Part shown: positions 13,494-64,000 of the stretch, one piece after another
How the letters are laid out: every line of letters begins with the position of its first letter
How positions within the stretch are numbered: position 1 is the stretch's first letter
Assembly: GCA_964017235.1 (NCBI GenBank)
Contig: OZ024934.1
Span: 82,178,706-82,242,705, forward strand
From: Sabellastarte sp. h YS-2021
Lineage: Eukaryota > Annelida > Polychaeta > Sabellida > Sabellidae
Direction: 5' to 3'
DNA length: 64,000 nt
The notes under the pieces: model-generated
Database searches by the model: none
What the model saw: the letters and a program-made list of their open reading frames with translations, nothing else
Told to the model about the DNA's origin: nothing
Made by a program: the position numbers and the translations under genes

Positions 13494-13843
13494 TCTAACA
13501 AAATGTCATATTTTATAAACAGAAATGCTCCTTGAAGATCGAGTATTGTATGTAGGCAGGTCCATTTATTTAAAGATCAAATACTTCATATTGTTGTACA
13601 ACTCATTAATGTTCATATGTACTATGTGCAAATGAGGCCACAGAATTCCGTGCCATCTCTCAAAAATATTTTATATTTTAAACAGAAATGTGTTTAGAAT
13701 GGTATTTTATGTGGAACGTAAATGATATCTTGGGTATGAGTTGTGAGTAGGTATATCGGGAATCTCAGTGTTTCGCCGATTTTTTAACCGTGTCTTTAGA
13801 CGACTTTTAGTTTACACCAACTTTATGTTTACATTTTTTCAAC

Positions 13844-15139
13844 ATGGCGGAAAATGTCAGTTTGGGAAGTCTTCCAGATGAGATACTTTTCCATATATTG
13901 TCATTCCTTGATCATTGTGACGTCATTAAAATAAGTTCTACATGTAAGAGAATGAGAGAACTGGGCCGTTGTGACTTGATATGGAAACCAATCTGTCAGA
14001 AATACTGGTGTATTTCCAACTGCCCCAGTCACTTGTCTTGGTGGGATATCTTCAGCGAGTGGTCTCGAGATTATGGACGGTATATTAATGTGTATAGATT
14101 CATTCGACGAGCCTGGGATGAAATTGAGGATAAAATGGATGACAATTTCCCCAATATCTTTGAAAGTCTTCAGGATGGCTTGTCAGAAGAAGAACTCGAT
14201 TTAATTGAAAGTCAACTCAATAGGCCTTTGCCAAATGATTTCAGGTGTGTTTACAGAATACACAATGGCCAACGAGAAAATATGGCAGACATGGGGTTAT
14301 TTGGTGCACTACAAGTGTACAATGTTTACTCAGATATGCACATGCTTGATCTGAGATCGCTGGCAAAGGTTTATCCTTCTACCGTTCAAAAGAGTTGTGC
14401 AGGTTGGCAGTTTACTGGCTGTTTGCCTTTTTCAAAGTGTGAGCATTCTGGGACTATGCAGTACTTGGCTTTGACTGATGAAAAAGGACATGTACCTGGA
14501 CAAGTATTTCTCCCAACTCAAAATGTAGAGATTCTTCATAGCCTGAATGATGAGGGAAATGATCAGAGAAAGAACTTTTCATTTGACGATTTCATTTTAG
14601 CCAATAGTTTTATGGAGTACTTTTTGAATTTTGCAAACAATTTAGACAATTACCCAAATGTAAATGGACAAATGTTCAGATTTATATCCAACCCCAAAAC
14701 AAAACTAAAGACTGGATTTGTTAAAGTAGATGTGGCAACCTGCTTTTGTGCAGAACAGAGCGTAATCAATCCTCCTGAATTTGTTTATGCTTACAGAATC
14801 ACATTGAGTATGGATGCAGATGCACCCGCTGATGAAACTTGTCAGCTTGATAGTCGCCATTGGATTATCACTGATGAAAATGGAAAAGAGCAAAGAGTGG
14901 ATGGCCCAGGTGTTGTTGGCGAGTTTCCAATTATGAGGCCAGATACAAAGTTTTCTTGGATTAGTTGTACATCATTTAAGACAACTTATGGAACAATGGG
15001 AGGGCATTTTACTATGCGAAATTTGATCACTGGTAATACGTTTGACCTTCACTGTCCTACTTTCCATTTAAAGTGTCTCCCTTATCAAACAGCAAAAGAC
15101 AGAGACATGGTCATGCAGAGAGTGAAGAAAGATCAATAG
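13844..15139 (+). CDS. FBXO3: F-box only protein 3 (FBXO3), intronless, complete
   Basis: The 431-residue protein is open from ATG (context caacATGgcg) to TAG. Residues about 8-52 form an F-box (LPDEILFHILSFLD) for binding SKP1 in an SCF ubiquitin ligase. Residues about 95-235 resemble the SMI1/KNR4-like domain of FBXO3, including PNDFRCVYRIHNGQ. Residues about 275-405 form an ApaG domain with CQLDSRHW, DGPGVVGEFP and SCTSFKTTYGTMGGHF. This order is that of FBXO3, a cytosolic and nuclear substrate receptor. The long acidic C-terminal tail of vertebrate FBXO3 is missing, and the protein ends in a short basic stretch. The vertebrate gene has many introns while this copy has none, which suggests an old retrocopy or intron loss. 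No poly(A) remnant follows. An AATAAA lies at 15209-15214. It converges on the potassium channel gene at 16030. Confidence 0.93.
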   Translation: MAENVSLGSLPDEILFHILSFLDHCDVIKISSTCKRMRELGRCDLIWKPICQKYWCISNCPSHLSWWDIFSEWSRDYGRYINVYRFIRRAWDEIEDKMDDNFPNIFESLQDGLSEEELDLIESQLNRPLPNDFRCVYRIHNGQRENMADMGLFGALQVYNVYSDMHMLDLRSLAKVYPSTVQKSCAGWQFTGCLPFSKCEHSGTMQYLALTDEKGHVPGQVFLPTQNVEILHSLNDEGNDQRKNFSFDDFILANSFMEYFLNFANNLDNYPNVNGQMFRFISNPKTKLKTGFVKVDVATCFCAEQSVINPPEFVYAYRITLSMDADAPADETCQLDSRHWIITDENGKEQRVDGPGVVGEFPIMRPDTKFSWISCTSFKTTYGTMGGHFTMRNLITGNTFDLHCPTFHLKCLPYQTAKDRDMVMQRVKKDQ

Positions 15140-48571: not shown

Positions 48572-48656
48572 TTAACAGACTACAACTTCTGACCCAGGGA
48601 TACCTGCTTCTGAAGCAAGCTACAGTTCTCTGGTTTACCAACTGAGCTATCATAGG
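48572..48656 (-). pseudogene. tRNA-Tyr-like relic
   Basis: On the minus strand it starts cctatgatagctcagttggt and has actgtagcttgcttcagaag, matching the 5' half, GTA anticodon and intron of the array tRNA-Tyr genes. The T arm (agttgtagt) has lost the TTC motif, and the 3' acceptor strand does not pair. It lies on the far side of the DIRS element from the array and shares a few flanking bases (ggatt-gt-t-tggtg) with array units. Confidence 0.65.
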
Positions 48657-50190: not shown

Positions 50191-52362
50191 TCATTGAAGG
50201 GGAAGCCTGAATGGAATCTGAACTGAGAGGTTGACCAGATCCCAGAACCAAGACATGTTGGGCCACCCTAGGGCAATTAGGATCATTCTGCGACAACCTT
50301 GATCCACCACATTTGAAATCACCTGGTTGATTAGGGAGGCTGGAGGAAAAGCATAAACATCCAGATTCTCCCATGACAGACTCATGGTGTCTACTGCCCA
50401 GGCTACCGGATCCGGTACTGGTGATACAAACTTGGGAAGTTTATGGTTGAACCGGGTGTCAAATAGGTCTAAATGAGGCTGGGTCCATCTTGAGCACAAA
50501 AGATTGAACACCCGCTGAGAGAGGGACCACTCTGTCTGGATCAGCTGATTGTGTCTGGACAGTTTGTCTGCTATCGCATTCAACTGACCCAGTATGTGTC
50601 GAGCCCTTAGACTTATTCCCTGTGGGTGACACCAAGACAGAAGTCTCCAAAGGAGGGCACACAGAGAACCTGATCTCATACCTCCCTGTTTGTTGATGTA
50701 AGAGACTACAGTTGTGTTGTTCGTCACTGCAAGAACAATCTAGTCCCTGCAAAGATGCTTGAAACTCTTGAGGGCCAGAAGGACTGCTTTTAACGCCAAG
50801 AAATTTATGTGGAGGCGACTTTCTGGAGTGACCAAACACCTTTTGCAGTGGAGTACCCTAAGTGTGCACCCCAGCCTTCGTTTGAGGCGTCTGTAAACAG
50901 CTGAAGAGCGTGTTGAAGGGGGTGCAAAGGTTGGCCCCATAGCACATTGCTTTCGTCCAACCACCAATCTTGGTGGGGGTGAAGTGACTGAGGAACAGGA
51001 ATGATCTTTCCCAAAACCTCGGGGACACGCCAGTGTCGCTTCAAGTGCCATTGGATAGGCCTCATGTGAAGTCGACCTGACCACACCTGTTTTTCCGTTG
51101 CTGAGAGCAGTCCTATCAATGACATGAATTGTCTGACTGTACAAGTCTCCCGGTGTTTGATGAACTTCAACTTCTCCTGGAGGGCTGTCCCCCGGTCCTG
51201 AGTGGGTAGGACCCGACCGGTCATCAGGTCAAACCGGTAACCTATGAAATTGAAGACCTGTTGGGGGATTAGTTCTGACGTTTTCATGTTTACAACCCAC
51301 CCTAACTGTTGGTAAAGGACCAAGAGGGTCTGGGTATGTTGTAGGCAGATTTCCGGGCACGGGGCTCTCAATAACCAGTCGTCTAGGTACTGGTGGATTC
51401 GGATACCCTTTGCTTGTGCCATAAGTTTCACTTCCTTGACCACCTTTGTAAACTCGAAGGGAGCTGTGGCCAGATCAAAGGGGAGAGCTGTGAATTGGAA
51501 TGTCTGATTGGACAGGAAAAACCTTTGATTTATTGGAATGTGGAAATATGCGTCGCTGAAGTCCAGCGAAGCTACCCATTCCGCTGTTTGTAAGGATAAT
51601 GGATTGTTTCCGGGGTTTCCATCTTGAATGTATTGGTGCTGAGGTATATGTTCAATTGACTTAGATCTAAGATTGGTCTCCATTTGCTGTTTGGTTTGGG
51701 GACAAGGAAAAGCCGGTTGTAAAATGCCAGAGACAGCTTGACAACCACTTTCTCCACTACCAACTTGCTCATGAGATAGAGTAAGGCTTCTTTTAAGAAA
51801 CATGCTCATGAGATAGAGTAAGGCTTCTTTTAAGAAACGGTTCTTTACTGGATTGGTGTAACCACTTTGAACCAGTGGGAACCTTGTCAATAGGGGTTTC
51901 TGTTTGAAGAAAAGGGTGTAACCGTCTCTCAGAACAGAGACCACCAAAGGATTTGCACCCATTGCTTGCCATATATGCCAAAACCTTTGTAACCTTCCCC
52001 CTACACTCTGTTCGATGACAGCATTGGGGACACTGGGAACAAGAGGGGCAGAAAGACATGGATTTACACAACATACACCTTTGACATGCTTTATTCTGTT
52101 CAGTGACTGATCGGGACTTAATCCTTTCTTTTGTGGAAGCCCGTGTAAAGGTACAATAGGAGCATGAGAAACAGCATGACAAGACACATCCAACTTTAAA
52201 GTCTGTGCAACTACTGGATTTATTGTCTTTGAAACAACTGGGTTTGAAACTGTCTTTGAAATTGAATTGTTTACACTGTGAGCCCGTGAAAACACTCTGT
52301 TCTGAACACTTGGCAAGTCCAACTGAATTTGAGTTACTTGAACAGGGGTTGGACCGACACAA
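50191..52362 (-). pseudogene. DIRS reverse transcriptase and RNase H, frameshifted
   Basis: Reading 5' to 3' on the minus strand, a cysteine-rich segment (CPSCSQCPQCC, about 52030) precedes the polymerase. Next comes FYNRLFLVPKPNSKWRPILD (about 51690), in another frame from the following SLDFSDAYFHIP (51570), so there is a frameshift near 51610-51640. The catalytic block YLDDW is intact near 51385. A 37-bp direct duplication (51766-51802 and 51803-51838) also shifts frame. RNase H begins at LFTDAS (about 50895). The expected glutamate in HINxLE reads HINFLA, and the expected DNTTVV aspartate reads NNTTVV, so two catalytic residues are lost. ADKLSRH near 50560 closes the domain. Confidence 0.85.
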
Positions 52363-52674
52363 TAATTGTCATTTATAGGGCTTATACTGGTGAGACTTGG
52401 AGAAACGAGGGTTGGCACCCCGTCCATGCCCACGCCCCCTAGAACAATTCCTGCTAAACTGTCTTCAGGGCTGTTGCTGTTGAGAGGTTTGATCAGAGGA
52501 GGTAGAGGCTTTCTTATCCCTACACTCATAAGGGCGGTACCTGTGGGAGCCTCTCCAGCTAGTGTGCTGAGGAGCACCCGGTCCGGGTCCCTGAGCGACA
52601 CTGCTGGTTTCATGTTTTTGTATGTCCTGTTCTGCTGTAACAATAGCAGCATCTGGGAATAATCCGTATCCAAA

Positions 52675-54585
52675 CTATGGAGCATTACGCAAAAGATTCA
52701 TAGTGTCCTGTTTGACTCCATTTTTCACAAAATCCAAATATGATTCTCGCCTGAGAAGGATTAGATTTGACAGATGAACAAAAAGGCTGTCTGCAAGATG
52801 CTGAAGAGATGTGCCCATGCCTACAGACACTCGTTGGTGAAAAGCCATGAAGTGACGCAGGTCATTCAAAGCTCTTGTGACCTCCTTTGGTGCCTTGCCT
52901 TTGTTGATACGGGAACAAAGGAAAGCAATATTTTGAGACATCTTGTCTTGCAATTCAGTTGAGCATCTGTTGAAACCAGCTGCATGGTTAATGATGTAAC
53001 TGTCCTCCCTTGCTGCTCTTTCCCACTGATGTAGCGACTCCTGAGACATAGGCCTAGAAGGTGGTCCAGTCGAAAGATAAGCAGAGGCCCTTGTGATTCT
53101 GAGAAATTGTGAATTTACCTTAGCCTCAGTGTTGTGCCAACTAAAAACAGAACGTCCAGGTCTGTGAGGTCCCTCTGGTTTAATCAAGTGCATATTTACC
53201 ACCTTGACTGAGATTTAGGGACTTTTATGAACTGATCATGCTTAAGACCAGCAGAGTCTTGAGCCCGTGACGGGTATCCTTCTGCTACAGTGAGGTTCAA
53301 ACGTTCTAGCTTTTGGCATAGCCAATTGTCTGGGGGCATGGCAACAGATATTCTAGCCGGTTTCCTAGGTTGTTTGCCCTTCCAGGGATTATTCCATTTA
53401 TCTGGCTCTGAGTAGTCTGATTCAAAGCTTGGAATATGATGCCAGCTCATAAAGGATCTGACTGAATGGACTGTTTCCCTGTAAGTCATGTCTTCTGTTT
53501 GCTCCGGTGTTTCAGTGGAGTCTGACAATTGACCATCTTCTAAACCAGAAAACGATTCTGACCGGTCAACATCTTCATCAGAAATTTGCTCAAAAAGGGT
53601 ATCTTCCGCATCCGGTGGATATGCACAGGCACCGGTACAGAAATGTCCATAACGCGGCTGGTGTGAAACAGAGGAAGTATGACCGGTGGGACCGGTAGAG
53701 TCTTTCTCAGAACCGGAAGAGGGTTGATGAATGTCCACTTTTTCTGTACTCAGCTGTTTAGCAGACTCCGGACCGGAGCTGGTGACAGCTAGTGGGGACG
53801 TAGAACGTCCTTGTTTAGATGAAGAAGAATGCTTTGGGGCCAGTGAGGTAGACCGATTACGTTTCTTGTGAGACTTTGATTTCTTATCAGCCTTGATCTC
53901 AGTTTTAGTGTCTTTATCAACAGAATCGTCTGTTTTCCTTGATTTGTGAGTTTTATTTGTCTTTGTGTTCAACAGATTTGGGCTTTACTGAGGCACCTGC
54001 AGCTACCGGAACCTTCACCGGACCAGTGGGATGGGTGCCTGGGGCCATAAACGGTGTCTCAGAGATTAAGTGCTGAGAATCTACTGGTTTGACTGTTGAT
54101 ACAGCGGTGGAAAAGATATTACCACATGACAGGAGTGCCTCCATGCGGGCAAATTGTTCGGCCCACTTATCAGACATGGCCATAAACTGCTCTGATGTAA
54201 CAAAGTTGGTATTTGGAGCAGAATAAGATAAAGCCATGGTAGGTTGGATAGGAGTTGAAAGCTGCGCAGAAGACTGCGCAGACGGGCCACTTGGTGATTG
54301 AAATGTAGATTCATTGTCTGCAGAACTGATAATGGTAACGTCTTTGGGAGACACCAACAAACCCGCTTTCTTCTCTTTCCTAATCTTGTAGGCCGGTGTG
54401 GCTAGTAATTCTTTTTGTGAACCAGAGAATCTGTCACAAATGGGACAAGGTTTATCCAACACACAATTGTCTTCACCAATATGCTTGTCCCGACATCTTG
54501 CGCACTTGTTGTGCGAATCAAAACTTGCCATTATATGGCCACACGACCCTTTACGTTGTCCTTTTTTATCACCTGGGGAGGCCAT
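52675..54585 (-). pseudogene. DIRS gag-like frame, broken
   Basis: The start ATG at 54585 opens MASPGDKKGQRKG, followed by a cysteine- and histidine-rich block CARCRDKHIGEDNC and CPICDRF (possible zinc binding). The frame then continues in three pieces: 54585-53953, 53972-53196 and 53202-52675. Short overlaps suggest one-base frameshifts near 53960 and 53200. The middle piece is Lys/Ser-rich. The last, containing FNRCSTELQDKMSQNIAFLC and LNDLRHFMAFHQR, is the most gag-like. In active relatives I would expect a single frame. Confidence 0.7.
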
Positions 54586-54711
54586 GGTACTTAATATTCA
54601 ACACTACTACAAATATTTTCACCAAACTGAAGTTTGAACAAGTATAAAATATAATAAAAGTTTCTCTTAAACTCCAAGCATTTTACTTCCACGTACCAAA
54701 CAAAAATAGGG

Positions 54712-55260: not shown

Positions 55261-55340
55261 GACAAATTATAAAATTTTGAATTAGCTAATTTAATATATT
55301 CAGTTGTGTAGTATATATTTACAGACAAAAACTTTAAGTT

Positions 55341-55445
55341 GGTTTAAGGCGCCAGACTCAAGAGCTTTACCTTGCCTCAGAAATTTGATCTAATGAGGTT
55401 TCTGCTCCATGAATGTGGGAGGGGGTTCAAATCCCACACCTGACA
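55341..55445 (+). pseudogene. tRNA-Leu(CAA), 5' end replaced
   Basis: Homology begins at taaggcgccagactcaag; the acceptor strand and D-arm 5' side are missing. The sequence before it (acagacaaaaactttaagtt) is the flank normally found upstream of the Tyr gene, so this is a recombination junction at the array edge. It keeps the intron and the 3' half, with changes in the variable arm. Confidence 0.8.
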
Positions 55446-55553
55446 AATAATTTTTGATTACCTAATTCAACAAATTCAGTTCTTTAACGTGTATTTACAG
55501 ACAAAAACGTTAGGTTGGTTTTTGTGAGGGAGAAAATGACAAAGGAAAAAGAG

Positions 55554-55644
55554 TCCTGTGAGACAGAGTTGAACTGCCGACCTAAGGATATCTACTTCTG
55601 AAACAAGCTACAGTCCTCCGCTCTACCAACTGAGCTATCACAGG
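55554..55644 (-). tRNA. tRNA-Tyr(GTA), intron-containing
   Basis: Exon 1 (37 nt) starts cctgtgatagctcagttggt and ends actgtag with the GTA anticodon. An 18-nt intron follows directly after position 37. Exon 2 (36 nt) starts atccttaggtc and ends tcacagg plus discriminator A. The acceptor (cctgtga with tcacagg), anticodon stem and T stem all pair, and the T loop is ttcaact. A T5 run (ctcttttt) just downstream can stop RNA polymerase III. The mature tRNA would be 73 nt before CCA. The intron has two changes from the other copies but the exons are consensus. Confidence 0.9.
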
Positions 55645-55883
55645 ATTGTTATGGTGGCTATAGAAATATTTCTAAGTATGGAAAGATATATTCACTCGGG
55701 TTAAACTTACAAGTCTTAATGATTCAGTAAATCAGTCTTCATGACTGAGATGATGTTCATTCAACAGCAGTCATCCAAGTAGCCCTGTTATCATTGAATT
55801 TCTAGTTTACATGGCATTGACTTTAATTGTTAATGAAATATGTGTTAACATTTACACAATTGGCTGTATTGTATCAGAGCTGC

Positions 55884-56020
55884 TAGTTGTTTGCCTTAAG
55901 TCAGCAGTTTACAGTGCACAAATTTTACCAACAGTATGTACAGGCATGTCCTCCAACTACCCATCACAATATAGCCAATAAGTTACAGAACCTGATGAAA
56001 AATAGTTTAATAAATAAAAT
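55884..56020. repeat. SINE family A tail embedded in the array unit
   Basis: The stretch gctagttgtttgccttaagt, cagcagtttacag, accaacagtatgtacaggc and actacccatcacaatatagc corresponds to the body of the SINEs at 850-1080 and 16270-16496. The tRNA-like head is absent. The same segment recurs in later units (for example 58343-58480, 62730-62860), missing only from shortened ones. Confidence 0.65.
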
Positions 56021-56093
56021 AATTATGTCAGATATAATTCATGCTTTTTAACTCAACTAATTTTACATGGTGGTTTAAAATGTTGTACAGTAA

Positions 56094-56214
56094 GTCAGGT
56101 TGACCGAGTGGTCTAAGGCGCCAGACTCAAGAGCATTACCTTGCGTCAGTATTTTGATCTAATGAGGTTTCTGGTCCACGAATGTGGGCGTGGGTTCAAA
56201 TCCCACACCTGACA
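56094..56214 (+). tRNA. tRNA-Leu(CAA), intron-containing
   Basis: Exon 1 (38 nt) runs from gtcaggt to gactcaag with the CAA anticodon. A 37-nt intron follows, and exon 2 (46 nt) starts ttctggtccac and ends acctgaca. The acceptor gtcaggt pairs fully with acctgac, the discriminator is A, a long class II variable arm is present (ccac-gaat-gtgg), and the T arm is gtgggttcaaatcccac. TTTT follows within 12 bases. In this copy position 10 is A instead of G, breaking one D-stem pair, and the intron has three changes. Confidence 0.85.
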
Positions 56215-56322
56215 AATAATTTTGGATTACCTAATTCAATATGTTCAGTTCTTTAACATGTATTTCCAGAAAAAAAGGTTAGGTTGGTTTTTGTGAGGGA
56301 GAAAATGACAAAGGAAAAAGAG

Positions 56323-56413
56323 TCCTGTGAGACAGAATTGAACTGCCGACCTAAGGATATCTGCTTCTCAAACAACCTACAGTCCTCCGCTCTATCAACT
56401 GAGCTGTCACAGG
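56323..56413 (-). tRNA. tRNA-Tyr(GTA), intron-containing, variant
   Basis: Compared with the consensus, U8 is C, one D-loop G is A, the T loop reads ttcaatt, and the first intron base is changed. U8 is nearly invariant in tRNAs, so this copy may not fold or function fully. Confidence 0.7.
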
Positions 56414-56582
56414 ATTGTTATGGTGGCTATAGATATATTTCTAAGTGTGGAAAGATATATTCACTCGGGCTAAACTTACAACACAAGTCTCAATGATTCA
56501 GTGAATCAGTATTCATGACTGAGATGATGTTCTTTCAACAGCAGTCATCCCAGTAACCCTGAAAATGACAAAGGAAAAAGAG

Positions 56583-56673
56583 TCCTGCGAGACAGAGTTG
56601 AACTGCCGACCTAAGGATATCTGCTTCTCAAACAAGCTACAGTCCTCCGCTCTACCAACTGAGCCATCACAGG
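56583..56673 (-). tRNA. tRNA-Tyr(GTA), intron-containing, in a Leu-less partial unit
   Basis: The preceding sequence jumps from gtaaccctg straight to aaaatgacaaagg, skipping the spacer and the Leu gene. Position 9 is G instead of A, and one acceptor pair becomes G-U (tcgcagg). The exons are otherwise consensus. Confidence 0.8.
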
Positions 56674-57132
56674 ATTGTTATGGTGGCTATAGATATATTT
56701 CTAAGTGTGGAAAGATATATTCACTCGGGCTAAACTTACAACAAGTCTCAATGATTCAGTGAATCAGTATTCATGACTGAGATGATGTTCTTTCAACAGC
56801 AGTCATCCAAGTAACCCTGTTATCATTGTCATTGAATTTCTAGTTTACATGGCATTGACTTTAATTGTTAATGAAATATGTGTTAACATTTAGACAATTG
56901 GCTGTAATGTATCAGAGCTGCTAGTTGCTTGCCTTAAGTCAGCAGTTTACAGTGCAAAAATTTTACCAACTGTATGTACAGGCATGCCCTCCAACTACCC
57001 ATCACTATGTAGGCAATAAGTTACAGAACCTGATGAAAAATAACTTAATAAATATAATAATTATATCAGAGATAATTCATGCTTTTTAACTCAACTAATA
57101 TTTACATGGTGGTTTAAAATATTGTACAGTAA

Positions 57133-57253
57133 GTCAGGTTGGCCGAGTGGTCTAAGGTGCCAGACTCAAGAGCTTTACCTTGCCTCAGTAATTTGATCTA
57201 ATGAGGTTTCTGGTCCACGAATGTGGGCATGGGTTCAAATCCCACACCTGACA
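57133..57253 (+). tRNA. tRNA-Leu(CAA), intron-containing
   Basis: One D-stem pair becomes G-U (ctaaggtgcc) and one variable-arm base differs (gtgggcatggg). All other exon positions match the consensus. Confidence 0.88.
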
Positions 57254-57361
57254 AAAAATTTTGGATTAGGTAATTCAATATGTTCAGTTCTTTAACATGT
57301 ATTTCCAGACAAAAATGTTAGGTTGGTTTTTGTGAGGGAGAAAAAGACAAAGGAAAAAGAG

Positions 57362-57452
57362 ACCTGTGAGACAGAGTTGAACTGCCAACCTAAGGATATC
57401 TGCTTCTCAAACAAGCTACAGTCCTCCACTCTACCAACTGAGCTATCACAGG
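57362..57452 (-). pseudogene. tRNA-Tyr(GTA), probably damaged
   Basis: The discriminator is U instead of A, and changes at the D-arm end (gagtgg) and in the segment before the T stem (aggttgg) are present. The anticodon and intron are intact. It may be a pseudogene. Confidence 0.65.
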
Positions 57453-57790
57453 ATTGTTAAGGTGGCTATAGATATATTTCTAAGTGTGGGAAGATATATT
57501 CACACGGGCTAAACTTACAACACAAGTCTCAATGATTCAGTAAATCAGTATTCATGACTGAGATGATGTTCTTTCAACAGCAGTCATCCAAGTAACCCTG
57601 TTATCATTGTCATTGAATTTCTAGTTTACATGGCATTGACTTTAATTGTTAATGAAATATGTGTTAACATTTAGACAATTGGCTGTAATGTATCAGAGCT
57701 GCTAGTTGCTTGCCTTAATTATATCAGAGACAATTCATGCTTTTTAACTCAACTAATATTTACATGGTGGTTCAAAATATTGTACAGTAA

Positions 57791-57911
57791 GTCAGGTTGG
57801 CCGAGTGGACTAAGGCCCCAGACTCAAGAGCTTTACCTTGCCTCAGTATTTTGATCTAATGAGGTTTCTGGTCCACAAATGTGGGTGTGGGTTCAAATGC
57901 CACACCTGACA
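57791..57911 (+). pseudogene. tRNA-Leu(CAA), probably damaged
   Basis: The invariant C61 is G (ttcaaatgccac), which breaks the 53-61 pair and weakens the B box. A D-loop base and position 26 also differ (ggactaaggcccc). The unit before it is shortened to 658 bases. Confidence 0.7.
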
Positions 57912-58012
57912 AATAAATTTGGATTACTTAATTCAATATATTAATTTCTTTAACATGTATTTACACACAAAAACGTTAGGTTGGTTTTTGTGAGGGAGAA
58001 AATGACGAAGAG

Positions 58013-58103
58013 TCCTGTGAGACAGTGTTGAACTGCCGACCTAAGGATATCTGCTTCTCAAACAAGCTACAGTCCTCCGCTCTACCAACTGAGCTATCAC
58101 AGG
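58013..58103 (-). tRNA. tRNA-Tyr(GTA), intron-containing
   Basis: The last T-loop base differs (ttcaaca). All stems pair and the intron is consensus. A few flanking bases are deleted before the terminator (aatgacgaagagtcc), leaving the pol III T-run shorter than elsewhere. Confidence 0.8.
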
Positions 58104-58564
58104 ATTATTACAGTGGCTATAGATATATTTTTAAGTGTGGAAAGATATATGCACTCGGGCTAAACTTACAATACAACTCTCAATGATTCAGTAAATCAGT
58201 ATTCATGACTGAGATGATGTTCTTTCAACAGCAGTAATCCAAGTACCCCTGTTATCATTGTCATTGAATTTCTAGTTTATGTGGCATTGACTTTAATTGT
58301 TAATGAAATATGTGTTAACATTTACACAATTGGCTGTATTGTATCAGAGCTGACAGATGCTTGCCTTAAGTCAGCAGTTTACAGTGCACAAATTTTACCA
58401 ACTGTATGTACAGGCATGTCCTCCAACTACCCATCACAATATAGCCAATAAGTTACAGAACCTGATGAAAAATAACTTAATAACTATAATAATTATATCA
58501 GAGATAATTAATGCTTTTTAACTCAACTAATATTTACATGGTGGTTTAAAATATTGTACAGTAA

Positions 58565-58685
58565 GTCAGGTTGGCCAAGTGGTCTAAGGCGCCAGACTCA
58601 AGAGCTTTACCTTGCCTCAGAAATTTCATCTAATGAGGTTTCTGGTCCATGAATGTGGGTGGGGATTCAAATCCCACACCTGACA
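58565..58685 (+). tRNA. tRNA-Leu(CAA), variant
   Basis: The D arm reads ggccaagtgg, and the T stem reads ggggattcaaatccc, so the 53-61 pair becomes A-C. Function is doubtful although the anticodon and intron are normal. Confidence 0.65.
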
Positions 58686-58793
58686 AATAATTTTGGATTA
58701 CCTAATTCAACAAATTCAGTTCTTTAACGTGTATTTACAGACAGAAACGCTAGATTGGTTTTTGTGAGAGAGAAAATGACAAAGGAAAAAGAG

Positions 58794-58884
58794 TCCTGTG
58801 AGACAGAGTTGAACTGCCGACCTAAGGATATCTGCTTCTCAAACAAGCTACAGTCCTCCGCTCTACCAACTGAGATATCACAGG
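58794..58884 (-). tRNA. tRNA-Tyr(GTA), variant
   Basis: G10 is T (gatatctcag), breaking a D-stem pair inside the A box. Everything else matches the consensus. Confidence 0.7.
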
Positions 58885-59345
58885 ATTGTTATGGTGGCTA
58901 TAGATATATTTCTAAATGTGGAAAGATATATTCACTTGGGCTCAACTTACAACACAAGTCTCAATGATTCAGTAAATCAGTATTCATGATTGAGATGATG
59001 TTCTTTCAACAGCAGTCATCCAAGTACCCCTGGTATCATTGTCATTGTATTATTAATTTACATGGCATTGAGTTTAATTGTTAATGAAATATGTGTTAAC
59101 ATTTACACAATTGGCTGTATTGCATCAGAGCTGCTAGTTGCTTGCCTTAATTCAGCAGTTTACAGTGCACAAATGTTACCAACTGTATGAACAGGCATGT
59201 CCTCCAACTACCCATCACAAAATAGCCAATAAGTTACAGAACCTGATGAAAAATAACTTAATAAATATAATAATTATATCACAGATAATTCATGCTTTTT
59301 AACTCAACTACTATTTACATGGTGGTTTAAAATATTGTACAATAA

Positions 59346-59466
59346 GTCAGGTTGGCCAAGTGGTCTAAGCCGCCAGAATCAAGAACTTTACCTTGCCTCA
59401 GAAATTTGATCTAATGCGGTTTCTGGTCCACGAATGTGGGTGTGGGTTCAAATCCCACACCTGACA
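59346..59466 (+). pseudogene. tRNA-Leu(CAA), probably damaged
   Basis: The D-stem 3' strand is changed (taagccgcc), position 32 is A (gaatcaag), and the D arm has the ggccaag variant. Several intron bases differ too. Confidence 0.7.
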
Positions 59467-59574
59467 AATAATTTTGGATTACCTAATTCAATATATTCAG
59501 TTCTTTAATGTGTATTTACAGACAAAAACGTTAGGTTGGTTTTTGTGAGGGAGAAAATGACAAAGGAAAAAGAA

Positions 59575-59665
59575 TCCTGTGAGACAGAGTTGAACTGCCG
59601 ATCCAAGGATATCTGCTTCTCAAACAAGCTACAGTCTTCCGCTTTACCAACTGAGCTATCACAGG
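59575..59665 (-). pseudogene. tRNA-Tyr(GTA), probably damaged
   Basis: Changes occur in the D stem (taaagc), the anticodon stem (gaaga, leaving a mismatch) and the variable region (ttggatc). The acceptor stem is intact. Confidence 0.65.
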
Positions 59666-59832
59666 AATGTTATGGAGGCTATAGATATATTTCTAAGTAT
59701 GGAAAGATAGATTCACTCGTGCTAAACTTACAAGTCTCAATGATTCAGTAAATCAGTATTCATGACTGAGATGATGTTCTTTCAACAGCAGTCATCCAAG
59801 TAACCCTGGTGGTTTAAAATGTTGTACAGTAA

Positions 59833-59953
59833 GTCAGGTTGGTCGAGTGGTCTAAGGTGCCAGACTCAAGAGCTTTACCTTGCCTCAGTAATTTGATCTA
59901 ATAAGGTTTCTGGTCCACGAATGTGGGCGTGGGTTCAAATCCCACACCTGACA
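59833..59953 (+). tRNA. tRNA-Leu(CAA), intron-containing, in the shortest unit
   Basis: Two D-stem pairs become G-U (ggtcgag, aaggtgcc). The unit before it is only 487 bases because the spacer jumps from gtaaccctg to gtggtttaaaat, removing the SINE-tail part. Confidence 0.83.
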
Positions 59954-60064
59954 AATAATTTTGGATTACCTAATTCAATATATTCAGTTCTTTAACATGT
60001 ATTTACAGACAAAAAACGTTAGGTTGGTTTTTTTGAGGGAGAAAATGACAAAGGAAAAAAAGAG

Positions 60065-60155
60065 TCCTGCGAGACAGAGTTGAACTGCCGACCTAAGGAT
60101 ATCTGCTTCTCAAACAAGCTACAGTCCTCTGCTCTACCAACTGAGCTATAACAGG
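60065..60155 (-). pseudogene. tRNA-Tyr(GTA), acceptor stem damaged
   Basis: The 5' acceptor reads cctgtta while the 3' strand reads tcgcagg, leaving a T-C mismatch and a wobble. Position 26 is A. It is probably not functional. Confidence 0.65.
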
Positions 60156-60616
60156 TTTGTTATGGTGGCTATAGATATATTTCTAAGTATGGAAAGATAT
60201 ATTCACTTGGGTTAAATTTATAACACAAGTCTCAATGATTCAGTAAATCAGTATTCATGATTAAGATGATGTTCTTTCAACAGCAGTCATCCAAGTACCC
60301 CTGGTATCATTGTCATTGAATTTCTAGTTTACATGGCATTGACTTTAATTGTTAGTGAAATATGTGTTAACATTTACACAATTGGCTGTATTGTATCAGA
60401 GCTGCCAGTTGCTTGCCTTAAGTCAGCAGTTTACAGTGCACAAATTTTACCAACTGTATGTACAGGCATGCCCTCCAACAGCCCATCACTATATAGGCAA
60501 TAAGTTACAGAACCTGATGAAAAATAACTTAATAATTATAATAATTATATCAGAGATAATTCACGCTTTTTAACTCAACTAATATTTACATGGTGGTTTA
60601 AAATATTGTACAGTAA

Positions 60617-60737
60617 GTCAGGTTGGCCGAGTGGTCTAAGGCGCCAGACTCAAGAGCTTTACCTTGCCTCAGTAATTTGATCTAATAAGGTTTCTGGTCC
60701 ACGAATGTGGGCGTGGGTTCAAATCCCACACCTGACA
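60617..60737 (+). tRNA. tRNA-Leu(CAA), intron-containing, consensus exons
   Basis: All exon positions match the majority sequence. The intron has ctaataagg where most copies have ctaatgagg. Confidence 0.93.
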
Positions 60738-60845
60738 AATAATTTTGGATTACCTAATTCAATATGTTCAGTTCTTTAACATGTATTTCCAGACAAAAAC
60801 CCTAGGTTGGTTTTTGTGAGGGAGAAAATGACAAAGGAAAAAGAG

Positions 60846-60936
60846 TCCTGTGAGACAGAGTTGAACTGCCGACCTAAGGATATCTGCTTCTCAAACAAGC
60901 TACAGTCCTCCGCTCTACCAACTGAGCTATCACAGG
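60846..60936 (-). tRNA. tRNA-Tyr(GTA), intron-containing, consensus
   Basis: Exons and the 18-nt intron match the majority sequence throughout. Confidence 0.93.
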
Positions 60937-61391
60937 ATTGTTATGGTGGCTATAGATATATTTCTAAGTGTGGAAAGATATATTCACTCGGGCTAAACTT
61001 ACAACACAAGTCTCAATGATTCAGTGAATCAGTATTCATGACTGAGATGATGTTCATTCAAGAGCAGTCATCCAAGTAACCCTGTTATCATTGAATTTCT
61101 AGTTTACATGGCATTGACTTTAATTGTTAATGAAATATGTGTTAACATTTACACAATTGGCTGTATTGTATCAGAGCTGCTACTTGCTTGCCTTAAGTCA
61201 GCAGTTTTCAGTGCACAAATTTTACCAACTGTATGTACAGGCATGTCCTCCAACTACCCATCACAATATAGCCAATAAGTTACAGAACCTGATGAAAAAT
61301 AACTTAATAAATATAATAATTATATCAGAGATAATTCATGCTTTTTAACTCAACTAATATTTACATGGTGGTTTAAAATATTGTACAGTAA

Positions 61392-61512
61392 GTCAGGTTG
61401 GCCGAGTGGTCTAAGGTGCCAGACTCAAGAGCTTTACCTTGCCTCAGTAATTTGATCTAATGAGGCTTCTGGTCCACGAATGTGGGTGTGGGTTCAAATC
61501 CCACACCTGACA
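61392..61512 (+). tRNA. tRNA-Leu(CAA), intron-containing
   Basis: One D-stem G-U pair (aaggtgcc) and a variable-arm change (gtgggtgtggg) are present. The last intron base is C. Confidence 0.9.
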
Positions 61513-61620
61513 AATAATTTTGGATTAGGTAATTCAATATGTTCAGTTCTTTAACATGTATTTCCAGACAAAAACGTTAGGTTGGTTTTTGTGAGGGAGA
61601 AAATGACAAAGGAAAAAGAG

Positions 61621-61711
61621 TCCTGTGAGACAGAGTTGAACTGCCGACCTAAGGATATCTGCTTCTCAAACAAGCTACAGTCCTCCGCTCTACCAACTGA
61701 GCTATCACAGG
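61621..61711 (-). tRNA. tRNA-Tyr(GTA), intron-containing, consensus
   Basis: It is identical in exons and intron to the copy at 60846-60936. Confidence 0.93.
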
Positions 61712-62172
61712 ATTGTTATGGTGGCTATAGATATATTTCTAAGTGTGGAAAGATATATTCACTCGGGCTAAACTTACAACACAAGTCTCAATGATTCAGT
61801 GAATCAGTATTCATGACTGAGATAATGTTCATTCAACAGCAGTCATCCAAGTAACCCTGTTATCATTGTCATTGAATTTCTAGTTTACATGGCATTGACT
61901 TTAATTGTTAATGAAATATGTGTTAACATTTACACAATTGGCTGTATTGTATCAGAGCTGCTAGTTGCTTGCCTTAAGTCAGCAGTTTTCAGTGCACAAA
62001 TTTTACCAACTGTATGTACAGGCATGTCCTCCAACTACCCATCACAATATAGCCAATAAGTTACAGAACCTTATGAAAAATAACTTAATAAATATAATAA
62101 TTATATCAGAGATAATTCATGCTTTTTAACTCAACTAATATTTACATGGTGGTTTAAAATATTGTACAGTAA

Positions 62173-62293
62173 GTCAGGTTGGCCGAGTGGTCTAAGGCGC
62201 CAGACTCAAGAGCTTTACCTTGCCTCAGTAATTTGATCTAATGAGGTTTCTGGTCCATGAATGTGGGCGTGGGTTCAAATCCCACACCTGACA
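62173..62293 (+). tRNA. tRNA-Leu(CAA), intron-containing
   Basis: Consensus except for one variable-arm loop-side base (ccatgaatgtggg), which leaves a mismatch in that arm only. Confidence 0.92.
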
Positions 62294-62401
62294 AATAATT
62301 TTGGATTACCTAATTCAATATGTTCAGTTCTTTAACATGTATTTCCAGACAAAAACTTTAGGTTGGTTTTTGTGAGGGAGAAAATGACAAAGGAAAAAGA
62401 G

Positions 62402-62492
62402 TCCTGTGAGACAGAGTTGAACTGCCGACCTAAGGATATCTGCTTCTCAAACAAGCTACAGTCCTCCGCTCTACCAACTGAGCTATCACAGG
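62402..62492 (-). tRNA. tRNA-Tyr(GTA), intron-containing, consensus
   Basis: It is identical in exons and intron to the two preceding Tyr copies. Confidence 0.93.
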
Positions 62493-62953
62493 ATTGTTAT
62501 GGTGGCTATAGATATATTTCTAAGTGTGGAAAGATATAATCACTCGGGCTAAACTTACAACACAAGTCTCAATGATTCAGTGAATCAGTATTCATGACTG
62601 AGATAATGTTCATTCAACAGCAGTCATCCAAGTAACCCTGTTATCATTGTCATTGAATTTCTAGTTTACATGGCATTGACTTTAATTGTTAATGAAATAT
62701 GTGTTAACATTTACACAATTGGCTGTATTGTATCAGAGCTGCTAGTTGCTTGCCTTAAGTCAGCAGTTTTCAGTGCACAAATTTTACCAACTGTATGTAC
62801 AGGCATGTCCTCCAACTACCCATCACAATATAGCCAATAAGTTACAGAACCTTATGAAAAATAACTTAATAAATATAATAATTATATCAGAGATAATTCA
62901 TGCTTTTTAACTCAACTAATATTTACATGGTGGTTTAAAATATTGTACAGTAA

Positions 62954-63074
62954 GTCAGGTTGGCCGAGTGGTCTAAGGCGCCAGACTCAAGAGCTTTACC
63001 TTGCCTCAGTAATTTGATCTAATGAGGTTTCTGGTCCAGGAATGTGGGTGTGGGTTCAAATCCCACACCTGACA
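62954..63074 (+). tRNA. tRNA-Leu(CAA), intron-containing
   Basis: Variable-arm differences only (ccaggaatgtgggtgtggg). The downstream T-run is extended by a local change (ctaattttttatg). Confidence 0.92.
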
Positions 63075-63182
63075 AATAATTTTGGATTACCTAATTTTTT
63101 ATGTTCAGTTCTTTAACATGTATTTCCAGACAAAAACCTTAGGTTGGTTTTTGTGAGGGAGAAAATGACAAAGGAAAAAGAG

Positions 63183-63273
63183 TCCTGTGAGACAGAGTTG
63201 AACTGCCGACCTAAGGATATCTGCTTCTCAAACAAGCTACAGTCCTCCGCTCTACCAACTGAGCTATCACATG
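63183..63273 (-). tRNA. tRNA-Tyr(GTA), one acceptor mismatch
   Basis: The second base of the acceptor is A (catgtga), giving an A-G mismatch with the 3' strand. The rest is consensus. Confidence 0.8.
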
Positions 63274-63734
63274 ATTGTTATGGTGGCTATAGATATATTT
63301 CTAAGTGTGGAAAGATATATTCACTCGGGCTAAACTTACAACACAAGTCTCAATGATTCAGTGAATCAGTATTCATGACTGAGATGATGTTCATTCAACA
63401 GCAGTCATCCAAGTAACCCTGTTATCATTGTCATTGAATTTCTAGTTTACATGGCATTGACTTTAATTGTTAATGAAATATGTGTTAACATTTACACAAT
63501 TGGCTGTATTGTATCAGAGCTGCTAGTTGCTTGCCTTAAGTCAGCACTTTTCAGTGCACAAATTTTACCAACTGTATGTACAGGCATGTCCTCCAACTAC
63601 CCATCACAATATAGCCAATAAGTTACAGAACCTGATGAAAAATAACTTAATAAATATAATAATTATATCAGAGATAATTCATGCTTTTTAACTCAACTAA
63701 TATTTACATGGTGGTTTAAAATATTGTACAGTAA

Positions 63735-63855
63735 GTCAGGTTGGCCGAGTGGTCTAAGGCGCCAGACTCAATAGCTTTACCTTGCCTCAGTAATTTGATC
63801 TAATGAGGTTTCTGGTCCACGAATGTGGGTATGGGTTCAAATCCCACACCTGACA
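63735..63855 (+). tRNA. tRNA-Leu(CAA), variant at position 37
   Basis: The base after the anticodon is T instead of G (actcaatagc). Position 37 is almost always a purine, so decoding or splicing could be affected. Other exon positions are consensus apart from the variable arm. Confidence 0.82.
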
Positions 63856-63963
63856 AATAATTTTGGATTAGGTAATTCAATATGTTCAGTTCTTTAACAT
63901 GTATTTCCAGACAAAAACGTTAGGTTGGTTTTTGTGAGGGAGAAAAAGACAAAGGAAAAAGAG

Positions 63964-64000
63964 TCCTGTGAAACAGAGTTGAACTGCCGACCTAAGGATA
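63964..64000 (-). tRNA. tRNA-Tyr(GTA), 3' part, cut by the window end
   Basis: Only exon 2 is visible (from the discriminator to tatcc). One T-stem pair is G-U (ctgtttcacagg). It shows that the array continues beyond the window. Confidence 0.8.

Follow-up and report, generated by a model that had tools for sequence, protein, structure and literature searches.

A long tandem array of convergent tRNA-Leu(CAA) and tRNA-Tyr(GTA) genes in a sabellid annelid, with predicted isodecoders distinct from those of dispersed genes

Large arrays of tRNA genes are known in animals and plants (PMC11067881; PMC4041453; PMC12652284; PMC2888827). In Hydractinia, tandem arrays comprise tRNAs for all 20 amino acids and other noncoding RNAs (PMC11067881). 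In zebrafish, early isodecoders (that is, different mature tRNAs with the same anticodon) are encoded in repetitive clusters and late ones by dispersed genes, and Asp-GTC is named there together with Leu-CAA and Thr (PMC11417395). Xenopus has dual tRNA gene systems (PMC3565088, citing Stutz 1989), and in Arabidopsis a Ser-Tyr-Tyr (SYY) cluster is silent in most tissues and active in the root cap (PMC12308677). Here we describe a window of 64,000 nucleotides (C8:82178706-82242705, contig OZ024934.1) from the one assembly analysed of Sabellastarte sp. h YS-2021 (GCA_964017235.1; 1,785,957,881 bases in 647 contigs), which holds one end of a tandem array pairing intron-bearing tRNA-Leu(CAA) genes with convergent tRNA-Tyr(GTA) genes. 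We propose, with a probability of roughly one half, that the array and a set of dispersed genes with distinct isodecoders may form a dual gene system in which the array is used conditionally.

The repeating unit of the array is 781 bp long, runs head to tail, and contains one Leu and one Tyr gene, which converge with 107 bp between them. Mapping by blastn, with window positions 60600-61400 as query against the window and the next 120 kb, places the continuous array at C8:82234045-82320061, which amounts in this assembly to 86 kb, 110 copies of Leu, and 111 of Tyr; detached pieces reach beyond it to about C8:82329200. Just one edge of the array, the left one, falls within the window (55340..64000), with 12 Leu genes on the plus strand, 12 complete Tyr genes on the minus strand, and one Tyr gene cut by the window end. 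The initial annotation of this DNA, made from the window alone, had described a tandem array of these two genes with a unit of about 780 bp; the array is real, and its position and unit length were given correctly, as were introns of 37 nt (Leu) and 18 nt (Tyr), which in the consensus lie one base 3' of the anticodon. The figure of about a dozen units given there describes the window and falls far short of the array. Leu-to-Leu spacing in the extended region is exactly 781 bp, the commonest value, in 69 of 111 intervals, and each gene keeps one orientation throughout. The alternation of Leu and Tyr is interrupted once only, at the irregular left edge, where there is an extra Tyr copy (56322 and 56582) and where Leu spacings of 1039, 658, and 487 bp occur. 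In a representative unit, the Leu gene (60617..60737, plus strand, 121 bp with its 37-nt intron; 50.7 bits in cmscan with RF00005, also found by ARAGORN with introns allowed and by blastn) is followed by the spacer between the convergent 3' ends (60738..60844), the Tyr gene (60845..60936, minus strand, 92 bp by ARAGORN with its 18-nt intron; 57.4 bits in cmscan with RF00005, also found by blastn), and a long divergent spacer, read from the sequence, from the Tyr 5' end to the next Leu 5' end (60937..61391). The 107-bp spacer carries T runs, TTTT for Leu and TTTTT for Tyr, that fit candidate RNA polymerase III terminators. Further Leu genes in the window start, on the plus strand, at 55340 (degenerate), 56094, 57133, 57791, 58565, 59346, 59833, 61392, 62173, 62954, and 63735, and further Tyr genes, on the minus strand, at 55553, 56322, 56582, 57361, 58012, 58793, 59574, 60064, 61620, 62401, and 63182, with the cut copy at 63963. 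With 110 Leu and 111 Tyr copies at regular spacing, the Leu/Tyr array belongs to the already known class of large tandem tRNA arrays.

Comparison of predicted mature sequences shows that array and dispersed genes encode distinct isodecoders of Leu(CAA) and Tyr(GTA). For Tyr, the 36-nt 3' half of the dispersed type has five exact matches in the genome, on C3, C6, C8 (29.56 Mb), C11, and C19, and the five genes have identical mature sequences of 73 nt and introns (15-18 nt) that all differ. The array type, represented by the C8 consensus, differs from all five at 8 of 73 positions; despite these differences, all 21 stem pairs are held in both types, with pairs 3-70 and 52-62 changed on both sides. 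For Leu, each of four dispersed genes compared with the array consensus departs from it at 2-5 of 84 positions; the strict dispersed Leu 3' end has four genome matches, and looser dispersed matches lie on C4. Four tRNA arrays were seen in the genome: the Leu/Tyr array on C8, Tyr-only arrays with 13-nt introns on C1 (C1:36834705-36927679; one block of 1262-bp units with two Tyr genes each and a second block of about 3.2-kb units), an intronless Thr(TGT)/Thr(CGT) tandem array on C3 (C3:180010867-180147841; 1512-bp unit in the 5 kb read), and an intronless convergent Asp(GTC)/Gly(GCC) array, also on C3 (C3:170855530-171104084; 705-bp unit in the 4 kb read). Among the 17 C1 genes recovered by ARAGORN, 7 of the 10 in the 1262-bp block have exons identical to the C8 Tyr consensus and the remaining 3 differ; introns and spacers of the C1 array are unlike those of the C8 array. 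Among five Thr(TGT) genes outside the C3 array, four differ from the array gene, one on C4 at positions 6, 49, 65, and 67 (two compensatory pairs by standard numbering) and three, of which two lie 15 kb apart on C1 and one on C6, at six positions; the fifth, on C4, has the array sequence. Array isodecoders score as high as dispersed ones in cmscan: the common array sequences score 57.4 (Tyr) and 50.7 (Leu), and the dispersed genes score 55.8-56.0 for the three Tyr genes scored and 48.6-49.7 for four Leu genes. One candidate signature, A57 in the T loop, was dropped as a general mark of array genes because dispersed Thr genes carry A57 too. Different mature tRNAs with the same anticodon are therefore encoded in arrays and by dispersed genes for Tyr, for Leu, and, in four of the five genes compared, for Thr.

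In zebrafish, as here, array and dispersed genes encode different isodecoders, including those of Leu-CAA and Thr; there, expression was measured and many clusters lie on chromosome 4, whereas here the arrays lie on C1, C3, and C8 (PMC11417395). The likeness to Xenopus lies in the presence of two tRNA gene sets, for which contrasting expression is established in the frog. In Xenopus laevis, Stutz et al. in 1989 reportedly found a tandem oocyte tRNA-Tyr set and a separate somatic set, with a unit said to be about 3.2 kb long and to hold eight tRNA genes. The Arabidopsis SYY cluster resembles the Leu/Tyr array in combining an intron-bearing tRNA-Tyr with a second family, in coexisting with separate dispersed Tyr genes, and in having a core of consensus copies and variable flanks with more defective copies; it differs in belonging to a plant and in its Ser-Tyr-Tyr unit (PMC12308677). 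The human repeat at 1q23.3 is likewise a tandem tRNA gene repeat, with units 98% identical and variable in copy number, but its unit is 7.3 kb long, GC-rich, and contains five tRNA genes, with 9-43 units per allele (PMC4041453). Entamoeba shares tandem units, of one to five tRNA genes, and concerted evolution, but is a protist in which nearly all tRNA genes are arrayed, with short intergenic repeats in some species (PMC2652664). In Hydractinia, tRNAs for 20 amino acids are arrayed, whereas here there are four arrays together with dispersed genes of different mature sequence; the accessible portion of the Hydractinia paper makes no mention of a convergent Leu/Tyr unit (PMC11067881). A literature search, which most subscription papers lay outside, found in the accessible texts neither a Leu/Tyr array nor, in any mollusc, a tRNA system divided between array and dispersed genes. 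The view that no array of this form had been described may hold for the exact Leu/Tyr pair, but not for long animal tRNA arrays, which have been published for Hydractinia and human 1q23.3.

Copy and divergence statistics rest on the 105 of 111 Leu-to-Leu intervals that were aligned; the six left out are the two that open the left edge, a pair that carries a 455-bp insertion, the final copy of the array, and a single detached copy. Mean pairwise divergence of units is 2.38%. When units are binned by seven, the leftmost bin diverges from the consensus by 3.2%, the rightmost by 2.0%, and those between by 0.6-1.7%; that is, the right edge is mildly diverged relative to a core that reaches at most 1.7%. 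Runs of 8, 5, 4, 4, and 3 units reappear 19, 6, 4, 4, and 3 units further along, with mean divergence of 0.03-0.13%, and neighbouring units resemble each other more closely than when their order is randomised (equalled in 0 of 1000 shuffles). The 455-bp insertion occurs at the identical unit position in two units 12,958 bp apart (extended-window positions 80857-81311 and 93815-94269, C8); the two copies are 99.8% identical, the surrounding 1300 bp are 99.46% identical, and a repeat of about 12 bases at each end fits a candidate target-site duplication. The array shows a homogenised core, diverged edges, and multi-unit duplications, a pattern in keeping with concerted evolution in which each unequal exchange involves several units. 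The suggestion in the initial annotation that the locus is a copy-number hotspot is borne out in the sense of these multi-unit duplications, and a chance origin of the pairing, also raised there, is no serious alternative given more than 100 units at a mean pairwise divergence of 2.38%. Dispersed copies of the whole unit, as expected of a short interspersed element (SINE) family, were not found among the 38 of 361 candidates scored in a search of the genome: matches outside C8 cover the tRNA genes and a few flanking bases at most, and the spacer is matched on C8 only, on which ground an origin of the unit as a SINE or other dispersed element was rejected.

The alternative that survives best, although we consider it improbable, is plain gene dosage: the array would be the ordinary, constitutive supply of Leu(CAA) and Tyr tRNAs, and the isodecoder differences would be drift. 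Its strength lies in numbers. A split pattern for Leu(CAA) has 105 matches in the genome, and of the 100 that are listed, this array accounts for 96, C4 for 3, and C5 for 1; the corresponding Tyr pattern has 138 matches, of which, among the 100 listed, 39 lie on C1, 58 in this array, and 3 are dispersed, and just 5 of the 138 have the dispersed-type 3' half. Internal promoter elements are also largely kept, with the A box motif retained in 101 and the B box motif in 95 of 105 Leu copies, and both motifs in all 105 Tyr copies. Against dosage stands the contrast that the five dispersed Tyr genes remain identical, whereas array copies vary as freely as their spacers, a contrast suggesting that the essential work falls to the dispersed genes.

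That same free variation leads to a second alternative, which we rate just behind dosage and also as improbable, that the array is a largely silent repeat: a macrosatellite that carries tRNA genes by chance, is homogenised by recombination, and has no role in translation. Per-copy purifying selection was sought among the 105 aligned units and was not detected. Exon diversity (Leu 0.035, Tyr 0.017) is not below that of the spacer (0.022; permutation p=0.41 for both exons together), and variants that break stem pairs are not significantly depleted (Leu, 13 seen vs 16.9 expected, p=0.06; Tyr, 14 vs 11.3, p=0.95); therefore single copies seem nearly free to decay. A missing signal of per-copy selection also fits a decaying repeat. 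Full pairing of both genes is found in just 44 of 105 units, and paired stems together with A and B box motifs and a T run in both genes in 42 of 105. These results weigh against a dual gene system, and so do several others. The chance that 8 random substitutions spare all Tyr pairs is 0.0074, but it is 0.12 when transitions only are considered, so the kept Tyr pairing is, taken alone, moderate evidence. In the 3.2-kb block on C1, none of the 7 genes found by ARAGORN was scored as identical to the C8 type, a count in which 5 genes did not fit the split made by the script. The C4 Thr(TGT) gene with the array sequence means that the division between array and dispersed genes is not strict for Thr.

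Loss of CpG sites fits a silent repeat too, and it equally counts in favour of the dual gene system, in which the array would be methylated. Transitions among copies occur at 15 of 16 CpG positions vs 84 of 271 other C/G positions (Fisher p=6e-7), the observed/expected CpG ratio is 0.25 in the Leu/Tyr array vs 0.41 and 0.47 in the flanks, and 5 of the 8 differences between array and dispersed Tyr types sit at CpG sites of the dispersed type. Germline methylation of the Leu/Tyr array is a fair, if indirect, inference from this pattern. Sampled ratios elsewhere are 0.23-0.26 in the Tyr array and 0.34 in the Thr array. Two observations belong with the adverse ones above: 32 of 110 flank windows of unit size have ratios of 0.30 or less, and the Asp/Gly array is not CpG-poor (0.54 over 4 kb), for which reason CpG decay was dropped as a trait of every array. 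A published parallel cuts both ways, in that most Arabidopsis tissues silence the Ser/Tyr/Tyr cluster but root cap cells reactivate it (PMC12308677).

Other features of the array speak against a silent repeat. The anticodon is kept in 105 of 105 Leu (CAA) and 105 of 105 Tyr (GTA) copies, in one C1 block 7 of 10 copies have the mature Tyr sequence of the C8 consensus, and all stem pairs are kept despite the differences from the dispersed type. Loss of structure or score in most copies, which would mark a cluster of tRNA pseudogenes and which the initial annotation had named as fatal to its finding, is not observed: among the 105 aligned copies of each gene, 67 for Leu and 69 for Tyr have every stem pair intact, and 22 of the 24 window copies exceed the Rfam tRNA gathering score in cmscan (12 Tyr at 45.3-57.4 bits, 10 Leu at 36.4-50.7 bits). 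The two missed by cmscan are the Leu copies at 55340 (degenerate) and 57791, the latter recovered by ARAGORN with introns allowed. Identity to the consensus is found for 30 Leu and 51 Tyr copies, and every one of the 105 Tyr copies has TTTT within 30 nt, as do 97 of the 105 Leu copies.

The initial annotation had also raised an intron-based meaning of the pairing, according to which Leu and Tyr genes are linked through a shared need for the splicing endonuclease. Both genes of the unit do carry introns, but the other arrays make this reading very unlikely. The zebrafish paper lists Asp-GTC beside Leu-CAA and Thr, and so Asp was searched here, and the convergent, intronless Asp/Gly array turned up, with 43 pattern matches across C3 170.86-171.10 Mb and one more on C8. 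Introns are thus not required here for a convergent two-gene array to arise, and nothing special need be invoked for the pairing of Leu with Tyr; the Tyr-only array, the intronless Thr/Thr array, and single Leu and single Tyr genes elsewhere point the same way, and intron variation among the aligned units lies within the range of exons and spacers. Spacer comparison of the Leu/Tyr unit with one unit of each of the three other arrays gave nothing notable. An assembly artefact is similarly far-fetched: long near-identical repeats are often misassembled, but the 183-kb stretch contains no N, divergence is graded with a diverged left edge, the insertion is confined to two copies, several arrays exist in the genome, and copies with their own variants mean that this is not a collapsed repeat.

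We return to the dual gene system, in which array and dispersed genes have distinct isodecoders. The convergent Leu/Tyr pair would have been amplified as a single unit, with intron content probably incidental, and we infer from the divergence pattern that the tandem array is kept uniform by unequal exchange and conversion. Polymerase III, acting through internal A and B boxes, would transcribe the two genes of each unit separately and stop at the T runs between them, and ordinary tRNA splicing enzymes would remove the introns. Dispersed genes would supply ordinary cells, and the array, otherwise methylated and mostly silent, would be a bulk source of tRNA in special conditions, most likely in oocytes and early embryos by analogy with zebrafish and Xenopus. 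The distinct isodecoders suggest, short of proof, a separate tRNA gene set for eggs or other special cells. Support for such a dual system of array and dispersed isodecoders in an invertebrate is circumstantial. More tentatively, the system may be two-tiered genome-wide, with arrays (Leu/Tyr, Tyr, Thr, and Asp/Gly; AT-shifted in Tyr and Thr) serving eggs and early embryos and strictly conserved dispersed genes serving the body.

Several further features were recorded. A degenerate lone tRNA-Tyr relic lies in the window at 48575..48656 (minus strand; blastn, 81.7% identity), with an 18-nt intron resembling the array intron. Retroelement-type open reading frames (ORFs), which we take to be DIRS/Ngaro-like, adjoin the array on the left (50191..54597, minus strand), with a Pfam reverse transcriptase domain in one ORF; ORFs similar to these by eye lie about 14-17 kb beyond the right end of the array. 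At window positions 13811-15139, an uninterrupted 442-codon ORF contains F-box, SMI1/KNR4, and ApaG domains and is presumably FBXO3-like. The COX1 gene on C647 is open throughout in the invertebrate mitochondrial code (code 5), as well as in codes 4 and 9, but not in code 2, in keeping with an invertebrate host. Four complete Asp genes in the Asp/Gly stretch read have the T loop TTTGATT, which changes a C of the B box that is usually invariant. A genome-wide RF00005 search scored 63 of 214,286 first-look tRNA candidates, which makes it of little use for counting, yet it exposed the Thr array; tRNA-like sequences with an Ile(TAT) anticodon resemble SINE heads.

Because mature tRNAs differ between array and dispersed genes, standard tRNA sequencing is able to distinguish the use of the two sets tissue by tissue, and would show whether an egg/body split of tRNA genes reaches beyond vertebrates. 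The array also offers a natural test of why genomes retain hundreds of redundant tRNA genes. If the two-tier reading is true, the oocyte/somatic split of frog and fish would be either a wider animal principle or a repeated invention.

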